Below are positions 16,585 to 21,479 of a stretch of 64,000 bases of DNA, one piece after another. Position numbers and translations under genes: made by a program. The notes under the pieces are model-generated. The model did no database searches. It saw nothing but the letters and a program-made list of their open reading frames with translations, and was not told the DNA's origin. Each line of letters begins with the position of its first letter. Position 1 is the stretch's first letter. Location: positions 1-64,000 of the forward strand of contig NZ_CAIPNF010000267.1 in NCBI RefSeq assembly GCF_903866365.1, in the 5' to 3' direction. This DNA is from an uncultured Thiocystis sp. (GTDB taxonomy: Bacteria; Pseudomonadota; Gammaproteobacteria; Chromatiales; Chromatiaceae).

Positions 16585-17136
16585 ATGGCATCATCGGCGC
16601 CGTCCTTTTTCCGGAGGGCATTCATTGCGTTCGGCAGTTTCCGACGCATCCTGAAAGACCCTGATTTTGCGCACGCCGTCGCGACCCTGCCGGCCGGCGA
16701 ATCCGCACATCCGGCGGCGCGGCAGGCGCGTCCCGCCGCGGCGCCGCCGGCAACGGCCGCACCGGATTCCGCGCTGCTGCTGCTCGGACTGTTGCAGAAA
16801 GAGGGGCGTCTGGTGGATTTTCTCCACGAGGACATCCAGAGTTACTCCGATCAGGAGGTCGGTTCCGCCGCGCGGATCGTCCATCAGGGCTGTCAGCGGG
16901 TGCTGCAACAGCATCTGACGATCATCCCGGTGCGCGACGAGCCGGAAGGTAGCCGGATCACCCTGGAGCGGGGTTTCGACGCCTCAGCCCTGCGGCCCAC
17001 GGGTCAGGTGGTCGGCGATCCTCCCTTTACGGGTTCGCTGGCGCATCGCGGCTGGCGCGTGGTGGAGACCCGTCTTCCGGCGGTCACGAGCGGGCATAAC
17101 CTGAAGATCCTCGCGGCGGCGGAGGTAGAGCTGTGA
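16585..17136 (+). CDS. DUF2760 domain protein (Hsp70 partner)
   Basis: 183-aa protein of the DUF2760 family. After an Ala/Pro-rich linker (about residues 35-62), the conserved part reads ALLLLGLLQKEGRLVDFLHEDI, SDQEVGSAARIVHQGC and a C-terminal HRGWRVVETRLPAV. DUF2760 proteins are typically encoded directly before an atypical Hsp70, as here, where the stop overlaps the chaperone start (GTGA). A co-chaperone or assembly role is inferred from this linkage only. No signal peptide or TM segment. Confidence 0.88.
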   Translation: MASSAPSFFRRAFIAFGSFRRILKDPDFAHAVATLPAGESAHPAARQARPAAAPPATAAPDSALLLLGLLQKEGRLVDFLHEDIQSYSDQEVGSAARIVHQGCQRVLQQHLTIIPVRDEPEGSRITLERGFDASALRPTGQVVGDPPFTGSLAHRGWRVVETRLPAVTSGHNLKILAAAEVEL

Positions 17137-18980
17137 GCGTGGGACGTTATGCCGTCGGCATCGATCTCGGGACGACCCATTGCGCGCTGTCCTACGTGGA
17201 CTCGGAAAAGAGCGAGGGGGAGAACGTCGTTCAGGCGCTGCTGCCCATCCCCCAGCTTGTCTCGCCGGGCGCGGTGGAGGCGCGGCCGCTGCTGCCCTCC
17301 TTCCTCTATCTGCCGCACCAGGACGAGTTCAGGACCGGCGACCTGGGGCTGCCCTGGCAGAGCGATTCCACCCGCATCGGCGGCGAACTGGCGCGCAATC
17401 AGGGCGCTATGACGCCGATTCGTCTGGTGTCCAGCGCCAAGAGCTGGCTCTGTCACCCGGATATCGATCGCAAGGCGCCCATTTTGCCGGCGGGCGCGCC
17501 GGACGAGATCGCGAAGGTCTCGCCCTTCGAGGCGAGCATCCATTTCCTCGCGCATCTGCGCAATGCCTGGAACGGACTGCATCCCTACGAGCCGCTGGAC
17601 CTCCAGGAGGTGACGGTCACGGTGCCCGCCTCCTTCGATCCGGCGGCGCGCGAGTTGACCGCCGAGGCGGCCAAGGCGATCGGCATCGAGCATCTGGTGC
17701 TCCTGGAAGAGCCGCAGGCGGCGCTCTATAGCTGGGTCAGCGACAGCCAGGGCGATTGGCGCAATCAGGTGCGGGTGGGCGATGTCATTCTGGTGGTCGA
17801 TGTCGGCGGCGGGACCACCGATCTGTCGCTGATCGCGGTCACCGAGAACGCGGGCGCGCTGGAACTGACCCGGGTGGCGGTCGGCGAGCACATCCTGCTC
17901 GGCGGCGACAACATGGATCTGGCGCTGGCCTATCTGCTCAAGAACAAGCTGGCGCAATCCGGCGTCGAACTGGATCGCTGGCAGTTGCAGGCGCTTACCC
18001 ACGGCTGCCGTCAGGCCAAGGAATCGCTCCTGGCCAATCCCGAGCTTGAACGCCTGCCGGTGGTGGTGCCCAGTCGCGGATCGCGCCTGATCGGCGGCAG
18101 TATCCGCACCGAACTCACGCGCGAGGAGGTCCAGACCAGCCTGATCGAGGGCTTTTTCCCGGCGATCGAGTCCAGCAGCCGACCGGCCAGCCGCGCGCGC
18201 GGCGCCCTGACCAAGGTCGGTCTGCCCTACGCGCAGGATCCGGCCGTGACCCGGCATCTCGCCGCGTTTTTGGGTCGACAGAGCGGCGCGACCGAGGATC
18301 TGGCCGGCTTCGTCGCCCAGCACCCGGACGCGAGTTTTCTGCGCCCGACCGCCGTGCTCTTCAACGGCGGCGTGTTCAAGGCCACGCCACTCCAGGCGCG
18401 TGTCCTGGAGGTGCTCAACCAGTGGCTGGCGGCCGAGGACGCGCCAGCCGCGCGCCTGCTGGAGTCACGCGATCTGGATCTGGCGGTGGCGCGCGGGGCC
18501 GCCTTCTATGCCCATGTGCGCCGTCATGGTGGGGTGCGGATTCGCGGCGGCACCTCGCATACCTACTATGTTGGCGTGGAGAGCGCGATGCCCGCCATCC
18601 CCGGTATGGAGCCCGAGCTTCAGGCGCTTTGTCTGGTTCCCTTCGGGCTGGAGGAAGGCTCCGCGCCGGTCGCGCCGCCCCAGGAATTTGGCCTGGTAGT
18701 TGGCGAGCCGGTGCGTTTCCGCTTCTTCGGCTCCAGCGTGCGCCGCGAGGACCAGGTCGGCGACCTCCTGGACGAATGGGGCGAGGACGAGCTCGACGAA
18801 CTGGATGAGATACAGACCACGCTGCCGGCCGAACACCGGAAGAAAGGCGAAGTGGTGGCCGTGCGACTGCAGGCGGCGGTCACGGAGGTCGGCACCCTGG
18901 AACTGACGGCGATCCCGGTCGATGCGACCGAGGAACGCTGGAATGTCGCCTTCAATACCCGAGGCAATCGCGGGGACTGA
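17133..18980 (+). CDS. Hsp70 family (DnaK/HscC-like) ATPase
   Basis: 615-aa Hsp70-family protein. The N-terminal ATPase domain has phosphate-1 (GIDLGTTHCALS, residues 9-20) and phosphate-2 (VVDVGGGTTDLSLI, near residue 220) motifs, and FNGGVFK near residue 410 matches the adenosine loop. The C-terminal part is shorter and more acidic (DEWGEDELDELDE) than in DnaK and lacks a Gly-rich lid tail, so it is a specialised Hsp70. The GTG start overlaps the DUF2760 stop by 4 bases. In many genomes a second, DUF3731-containing Hsp70 follows; here the next gene is glgA. Confidence 0.9.
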   Translation: MSVGRYAVGIDLGTTHCALSYVDSEKSEGENVVQALLPIPQLVSPGAVEARPLLPSFLYLPHQDEFRTGDLGLPWQSDSTRIGGELARNQGAMTPIRLVSSAKSWLCHPDIDRKAPILPAGAPDEIAKVSPFEASIHFLAHLRNAWNGLHPYEPLDLQEVTVTVPASFDPAARELTAEAAKAIGIEHLVLLEEPQAALYSWVSDSQGDWRNQVRVGDVILVVDVGGGTTDLSLIAVTENAGALELTRVAVGEHILLGGDNMDLALAYLLKNKLAQSGVELDRWQLQALTHGCRQAKESLLANPELERLPVVVPSRGSRLIGGSIRTELTREEVQTSLIEGFFPAIESSSRPASRARGALTKVGLPYAQDPAVTRHLAAFLGRQSGATEDLAGFVAQHPDASFLRPTAVLFNGGVFKATPLQARVLEVLNQWLAAEDAPAARLLESRDLDLAVARGAAFYAHVRRHGGVRIRGGTSHTYYVGVESAMPAIPGMEPELQALCLVPFGLEEGSAPVAPPQEFGLVVGEPVRFRFFGSSVRREDQVGDLLDEWGEDELDELDEIQTTLPAEHRKKGEVVAVRLQAAVTEVGTLELTAIPVDATEERWNVAFNTRGNRGD

Positions 18981-19061
18981 GTCAGACGAATCCGCGCGGC
19001 AGCGTATCGGCGCGGATTCGCCGCTTTTGACAAGTGCGACCGCAGTACACTAATAATAGAG

Positions 19062-19187
19062 AAGGGGGGTGTCCAGCTCAGTGCGGTGGATACCAGATAT
19101 TGTGATATTGGCACTCGAAGCGTCCTTTGGATGGTGTGTCGAGATCCAACTCATCGGCGCTACCGCACTCAGATGGATACCCCCCTT
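19062..19187. mobile_element. 126-bp MITE-like element with terminal inverted repeats and target duplication
   Basis: Two 26-base ends (19062-19087 and 19162-19187) are inverted complements at 23 of 26 positions, starting AAGGGGGGT. They are flanked by a direct repeat AATAGAG at 19055-19061 and 19188-19194 (8 bases, TAATAGAG, if the outer T is counted). The 74-base interior has no coding capacity. This is the structure of a non-autonomous miniature transposable element. The parent IS family is not identified. It lies between the Hsp70 gene and glgA, ending 51 bases before the glgA start. Confidence 0.82.
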
Positions 19188-19238
19188 AATAGAGTTAAGC
19201 GTTCTCCCAGAGACGACACCGCTGTAGGAACCGAGCGA

Positions 19239-21479
19239 ATGGCGAAAAAGCCGACTGGATCGAAACAGGGACCGACCGCGCGCCCGAGCGCGGCCGATAA
19301 AACTGCAACCACCGCTGCGAGCAAGCTGCCAACGAGCGAAGCCGCCCCAGAGGCATCCGGCGACGCTTCGGCCAAGCCACCCCAGGCGCCGGCTGACGCG
19401 ACCGCTGGGGGCAAGCAACCGCGCTCTGTGAACACATCCGTCGGCACCGAACCAAAGCCGGGGACGGTTTTGCAGGCGCCGGCAGCGAAGGAGAAGCCTG
19501 GGCCAGCAGCGACGAAACCGGTGTCGAAACCAGAACCTCGCGCCACAGCGAATCCGGTCGAAAAGACCGCGCACCCAGCGAAGCCCGACTCCGGTTCCTC
19601 GGCCTCGGCGAGCGCGTCACCGAAAACGACCGAGGCCGTGAGCAGGACGGTACCGGCTACCGCCCCGACAACCGACGCGAGCGCTCCGCTCATCGCGGGT
19701 GACCGTCGCCAAGCGACCAAGCCATCGCCGCCGCCACGGCCATCCGCCGCACCCAAGCCCAAGCCCATTGAGCCAACCCAGGGCAGCCTTGAGCAAGGGA
19801 CGATATCGTCGCCGTTGGCGGCGGCGACACCGGAACCCGCCGAGGAGCCGCAACCCGCGCCAGTCGTCAGCCGCGAATCCGCGCCGGAACCGCAACCGGA
19901 ACGTCCGCCGGCATCCGAGCAGGCACACGCACCGCCGTCCGAGCCGATGCCCGAGGTCGTCCCGGCGCCGCCGCCCGCCTCGCCACCGGCGCCCAGTCGC
20001 CCCAGCCTGTATGTGGTTCAAATCACGCCCGAACTGGCGGCGGTGGCGAAGGTTGGCGGTCTGGCCGACGTGGTCTTCGGTCTCAGCCGCGAGCTGGCGA
20101 TTCGCGGTAACCATGTCGAGATCATCCTGCCCAAGTATGCCTCGATGCGCTATGACCAGATCTTTGAGCTCCAGGAGGTCTACAAGGATCTTTGGGTGCC
20201 CTGGTACGACGGGGCCGTTCACTGCACGGTTTTCTTCGGCTTCGTGCATGACCGCAAGTGCTTCTTCATCGAGCCGCACTCGCCGGATAATTTTTTCAAC
20301 CGCGGCAGCATCTACGGTTTCAAGGACGATGTGCTGCGCTATGCCTTCTTCTCGCGTGCCGCGACGGAGTTCCTCTGGAAATCGGGCAAGCACCCGGACA
20401 TCATCCACTGTCACGACTGGCAGACCGCGCTGGTGCCGGTGTTTCTCTACGAGTTCTATCAAACGCTCGGCATGAAGCATCCGCGCGTCTGCCTGACCAT
20501 TCATAACTTCGCCCATCAGGGCGTGACCGGCGTCGAACTGCTGCACGCCACCGGGCTGCATCGGCCCGAGCGCTTTTTCGATCCGACCCGGATGGCCGAC
20601 AACCGTCACCCCAAGGCACTGAACCTGCTCAAGGGCGGCATCGTCTACGCCAATTTCGTGACCACCGTCTCGCCGCGCTATGCCTTCGAGACCAAGGATC
20701 AGGGCCAGGGCTTCGGCCTGGAACCGACGCTGCACACCCATCACATCAAGTATGGCGGCGTGGTCAACGGGATCGATTACGATATCTGGAACCCCGAGGT
20801 CGACCGCCACATTCCGGTGCATTACGGGATCGACTCGATCGACGGCAAATACGACAACAAACGCGCGCTTCGTCACCGCCTGATGCTCGCCGACAACGAC
20901 AAGCCGATCGTCGCCTTCATCGGCCGGCTGGATCCGCAAAAGGGTCTGGATCTGGTGCGTCACGCCATCTTCTACGCCCTGGAGCGCGGCGCGCAGTTCG
21001 TGCTGCTCGGGTCAAGTCCAGATGAGCGGATCAATGGCGATTTCTGGAACCTCAAGCGGATGCTCAACGAGAGTCCGGACTGTCATCTAGAGATCGGCTT
21101 CGACGAGGATTTGTCGCATCTCATCTATGCCGGCGCGGATATGATGCTGGTGCCAAGCCGCTTCGAGCCCTGCGGACTGACTCAGCTGATCTCGCTGCGC
21201 TACGGCACCATTCCGGTGGTGCGCGCGATCGGCGGACTGGCGGATACGGTGTTCGACAAGGACTTTTCGGATCGGCCGCTGCATGCGCGCAACGGCTATG
21301 TCTTCCAGGATTACGACAATCCCGGACTCGAATCCGCGCTCGGGCGCGCCATCGCCTGCTATCGCAACCACCCGGAGCATTTCCGCGAGCTGATGAAGAA
21401 CGCCATGCGTTCGGATTACTCCTGGAACGTTCCCGGTCAGGACTATCTAAACATCTACGATTACATCCGCGATGCCTAA
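19239..21479 (+). CDS. glgA: Glycogen synthase (GT5) with long low-complexity N-terminal extension
   Basis: ADP-glucose-dependent alpha-1,4-glucan synthase. The GT5 domain runs from about residue 256 (SLYVVQITPELAAVAKVGG, with the K-x-G-G nucleotide-sugar loop) to the end at 746 and carries AFIGRLDPQKGLDL, PSRFEPCGLTQLISLRYG and DYSWNVPGQDYLNIY. Residues 1-255 are an Ala/Pro/Lys/Thr-rich disordered tract that ordinary GlgA of about 480 aa lacks. The start at 19239 has AGGAA about 8 bases upstream; in-frame codons further upstream fall within the MITE. A strong terminator follows the stop. The next gene is a GH13 enzyme, consistent with a storage-glucan locus. Confidence 0.9.
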   Translation: MAKKPTGSKQGPTARPSAADKTATTAASKLPTSEAAPEASGDASAKPPQAPADATAGGKQPRSVNTSVGTEPKPGTVLQAPAAKEKPGPAATKPVSKPEPRATANPVEKTAHPAKPDSGSSASASASPKTTEAVSRTVPATAPTTDASAPLIAGDRRQATKPSPPPRPSAAPKPKPIEPTQGSLEQGTISSPLAAATPEPAEEPQPAPVVSRESAPEPQPERPPASEQAHAPPSEPMPEVVPAPPPASPPAPSRPSLYVVQITPELAAVAKVGGLADVVFGLSRELAIRGNHVEIILPKYASMRYDQIFELQEVYKDLWVPWYDGAVHCTVFFGFVHDRKCFFIEPHSPDNFFNRGSIYGFKDDVLRYAFFSRAATEFLWKSGKHPDIIHCHDWQTALVPVFLYEFYQTLGMKHPRVCLTIHNFAHQGVTGVELLHATGLHRPERFFDPTRMADNRHPKALNLLKGGIVYANFVTTVSPRYAFETKDQGQGFGLEPTLHTHHIKYGGVVNGIDYDIWNPEVDRHIPVHYGIDSIDGKYDNKRALRHRLMLADNDKPIVAFIGRLDPQKGLDLVRHAIFYALERGAQFVLLGSSPDERINGDFWNLKRMLNESPDCHLEIGFDEDLSHLIYAGADMMLVPSRFEPCGLTQLISLRYGTIPVVRAIGGLADTVFDKDFSDRPLHARNGYVFQDYDNPGLESALGRAIACYRNHPEHFRELMKNAMRSDYSWNVPGQDYLNIYDYIRDA

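Follow-up and report, generated by a model that had tools for sequence, protein, structure and literature searches.

An IS1595-related MITE inserted directly upstream of glgA in an uncultured Thiocystis sp.

The short non-coding feature directly upstream of the glycogen synthase gene glgA is, with a probability of roughly 95%, a genuine non-autonomous MITE whose ends are those of an insertion sequence (IS) of the IS1595 family. It lies in the 64,000-nucleotide stretch analyzed here (the window). The preliminary description had proposed that an intact MITE, bounded by a target-site duplication, lies at this place, and the repeats, the further copies, the partner IS, and the empty sites in relatives all upheld the proposal. 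The insertion is an ordinary event, by now well supported at this site, and the element belongs to a known kind; an IS1595-type partner has been identified for it. The coordinates of the element and its surroundings are given in Table 1.

Table 1. Features of the glgA upstream region (positions in the window).
Feature	Position	Strand	Basis
Hsp70-like gene, upstream	17133..18980	+	ORF and family match
Putative glgA −10 box TACACT, common to several relatives	19046..19051	+	Alignment and hexamer scores; inferred
Left target-site duplication TAATAGAG, 8 bp	19054..19061	+	Direct repeat; single copy in the empty sites of G004 and G005
MITE, 125 bp, non-coding, IS1595-related	19062..19186	.	99–100% identical copies on C394, C113, and C302; 8-bp duplication
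Left terminal inverted repeat, 26 nt, AA then core GGGGGGTGTCCAGCTCAGTGCGGT	19062..19087	+	Matches left end of the C443 IS
Right terminal inverted repeat, 26 nt, final base common to the right duplication	19162..19187	−	92–100% identical ends occur on contigs from other phyla
Right target-site duplication TAATAGAG, 8 bp	19187..19194	+	Direct repeat
glgA, encoding a glycogen synthase whose N-terminal extension is Pro/Ala-rich	19239..21479	+	ORF and family matches

Structure of the Element

The element was short (125 bp), non-coding, and without a transposase gene. Its terminal inverted repeats measured 26 nt each with 74 nt between them and were complementary at 23 of 26 positions (88%), exactly as first reported. 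When the window was searched for the right-end 26-mer with up to 3 mismatches, only two sites were returned, namely the two arms, against 0 expected from 100 shuffles. The element strand was strongly self-complementary, with a predicted fold of −67 kcal/mol compared with −40.4 ± 4.3 kcal/mol for shuffled sequences (z = −6.2). An Rfam scan of the window gave no match.

The longest direct repeat at the flanks was 8 bp, which sets the length of the element at 125 bp. The AATAGAG repeat, originally given as 7 or 8 bases, was thus retained at 8 bp, and the original size of 126 bp was corrected. A length of 8 bp is also the usual one in the IS1595 family (PMC8101967). The duplication was not flush with the G run and left an extra AA on the left and a T on the right; the duplication of the second complete copy (on contig C394, below) was flush. 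Two elements from other genomes, L073 and L063, had duplications likewise offset by 1–2 nt from the G/C run, and the choice of ends in this group may be slightly loose.

Further Copies and the Partner Insertion Sequence

Copies of the element were searched for in the 5.5-Mb assembly (503 contigs). At least three more were found, 99–100% identical and at unrelated sites, giving four sites in the genome. The second complete copy (C394:2552-2676; L017) was 99% identical to the window element, interrupted an open reading frame, and lay between perfect 8-bp repeats, TCGCGGAA. In the same-genus relative G005, this locus was uninterrupted and held one TCGCGGAA within a 317-aa ORF of unknown function. 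The copy on C113 (positions 1-120) was 99% identical and was cut by the contig end, and that on C302 (30187-30256) was 100% identical over 70 nt up to the contig end. The protein encoded downstream of the C302 copy resembled dihydroorotase at its start, as judged by eye. The flanks of the C113 and C302 copies lie about 2.5 Mb apart in the same-genus relative G004, so these two are separate insertions. At both loci, the homology of the relatives stopped short of the insertion points.

An IS with the same ends, for which the preliminary description had proposed a search along with one for further copies, was present on contig C443. This full-length 1.13-kb IS (C443:37551-38684; L016 2052-3185) had terminal repeats nearly identical to those of the element, and its left end was 84% identical to the element over 45 nt. 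Its intact 353-aa ORF encoded an IS1595-family transposase with a zinc ribbon and a DDE domain (DDE_Tnp_IS1595, 9e-31; Zn_ribbon_IS1595, 2e-11; NCBIfam IS1595, 8e-58; accessions PF12762, PF12760, and NF033547). PMC8101967 describes 8-bp duplications as usual in this family and an N-terminal zinc finger in most members; both the window copy and the C394 copy had duplications of this size. A direct repeat was sought at the ends of the C443 IS and none was found, so this IS may have been rearranged. Two further IS right ends occurred at the ends of contigs C8 and C300.

Judged from the shared ends and the duplications, the window element is non-autonomous, derives from an IS1595-family IS, and was very probably mobilized in trans. 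The IS1595-type transposase of this genome, or a close relative of that enzyme, would recognize the shared ends and move the element to a new site, with formation of an 8-bp duplication.

Site History in Related Genomes

In two same-genus genomes, G004 and G005, whose Hsp70-like protein was 98% identical, the glgA site was empty. As the preliminary description had anticipated, the interval (...CACTAATAATAGAGTCGTTAAGCG...) held a single AATAGAG. The TCG that follows AATAGAG in both empty sites was missing from the right flank in the window. The element was also sought in 53 related genomes, and no match was obtained. Judged from the empty sites and from this absence, the insertion is recent and lineage-specific.

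Recent insertion had originally been read from the near-perfect ends. The age estimate stood, since the copies were 99–100% identical and relatives lacked the element; the argument from the ends did not. The differences between the two ends were the same in the C394 and window copies, so the three inverted-repeat mismatches characterize the element family and did not arise by decay once this copy had inserted. The perfection of the inverted repeat therefore says little about age.

The locus gives a clean pair of filled and empty sites, and the genome that carries the MITE also holds its recognizable partner IS; together these make a trans-mobilization test of the IS1595-family transposase straightforward. 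For the host, the insertion is specific to this lineage and lies in the probable leader of a glycogen gene.

Position Relative to glgA and Predicted Effect

The element separated the putative −10 box of glgA from the ribosome-binding site, and its end 51 bases ahead of the glgA start was confirmed (19187 to ATG 19239). Several family members carried TACACTA or TACAAT near the expected −10 position of their glgA leaders, and in all family members aligned the start codon was preceded by an AGG-type ribosome-binding site. The spacing from a TTGACA hexamer (19027-19032) was 13 nt to TACACT and 19 nt to an alternative hexamer, AATAAT (19052-19057). We also considered an N-terminal extension of glgA running in frame through the element (ORF from 19086). 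It was rejected because ATG 19239 and the AGG-type ribosome-binding site are kept in relatives without the element.

The element follows just after TACACT, close to where transcription is expected to start, and therefore probably forms a hairpin in the glgA 5′-UTR. In this lineage it landed recently between the likely promoter and the ribosome-binding site. A glgA transcript initiated at that promoter would begin with the element, or immediately ahead of it, and its 5′ leader would be a long stem-loop. With the promoter core and ribosome-binding site intact, glgA expression would most likely continue. The predicted accessibility of the ribosome-binding site was 0.48 with the element and 0.47 without it. 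An effect of the element on glgA is possible, and a neutral or mild one is most likely on these predictions; a small effect might arise through protection of the mRNA by the 5′ stem-loop.

Alternative Explanations

The strong hairpin (z −6.2) in the probable glgA 5′ leader could also be expected of a conserved regulatory stem-loop, such as a riboregulator or attenuator, whose likeness to a MITE is only superficial. However, such a stem-loop was absent from the glgA leaders in all six same-genus genomes and in the other family members examined, near-identical copies of the element occurred at unrelated loci, and Rfam returned no match. The empty sites had already refuted an ancestral stem-loop, and we give this explanation next to no weight. 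Another possible source is a different IS family whose G-rich end is alike by chance. The middle of the element (about positions 46-99) indeed matched nothing in the C443 IS, but the 26-nt ends were held in common with the IS1595-type IS, the similarity continued at 84% over the left 45 nt, and the 8-bp duplications are typical of IS1595 (PMC8101967). Origin from another family is very improbable.

A MITE that has since been co-opted to control glgA, for example by stabilizing the mRNA or by damping read-through from the Hsp70-like gene, would agree with both the strong hairpin and the site between putative −10 box and ribosome-binding site. Against this, the insertion is recent and bears no sign of selection, a promoter and terminator scan of 18900-19300 found neither a promoter nor a U-tract terminator, and the predicted ribosome-binding-site accessibility was unchanged. 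Co-option is accordingly unlikely. It is equally doubtful that the hairpin is now a functional glgA 5′ leader that alters mRNA stability or read-through, and hence glycogen storage compared with sister species. A MITE with IS1595-family ends, of small or no consequence for glgA, remains our preferred reading.

Comparison with Known Elements and Similar Ends Elsewhere

The nearest named match seen for the C443 transposase was that of ISCsp2 in the IS1595 family (51–53% identical). The window element shares with this family the IS1595-type ends present in its own genome and the 8-bp duplications, but it has no transposase and its middle is unrelated to the C443 IS. Around one copy of ISCsp2, ends were sought and no long G-rich repeat like that of the element was seen. 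According to PMC11578231, MITEPye1 of Paracoccus yeei is likewise small and non-coding with IS-like inverted repeats and direct repeats, and it resembles the window element in its strong predicted hairpin and low copy number. In the same paper MITEPye1 is related to IS1182, whereas the probable mobilizing family of the window element is IS1595. The passages available from the open-access IS1595 and MITE literature, which they cover in part, do not describe an IS1595-MITE pairing in bacteria.

A collection was scanned for the end pattern with the window's own records excluded. Viral contigs gave no match to the pattern, and plasmids gave none to the whole element. The pattern matched 14 contigs, from Verrucomicrobia, Competibacteraceae, Myxococcales, Desulfocapsa, and other MAGs. 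L063 (JAJXZI010000038) was a full IS1595-type element with similar ends. L073 (DYDL01000044, 539-823), from a Desulfocapsa sp. MAG, was an internally deleted IS1595 derivative of 281 bp with its own 8-bp duplication, and over 26 nt one of its ends was 100% identical to that on the right of the window element. In contrast with the window element, L073 retained the 3′ end of the transposase gene and is therefore a simple internal-deletion derivative. One Verrucomicrobia MAG (CAINDV01) showed IS1595-type ends on eight contigs (L062, L064-L069, and L072), all within about 200 bases of a stretch end, as expected where a multi-copy IS breaks the assembly.
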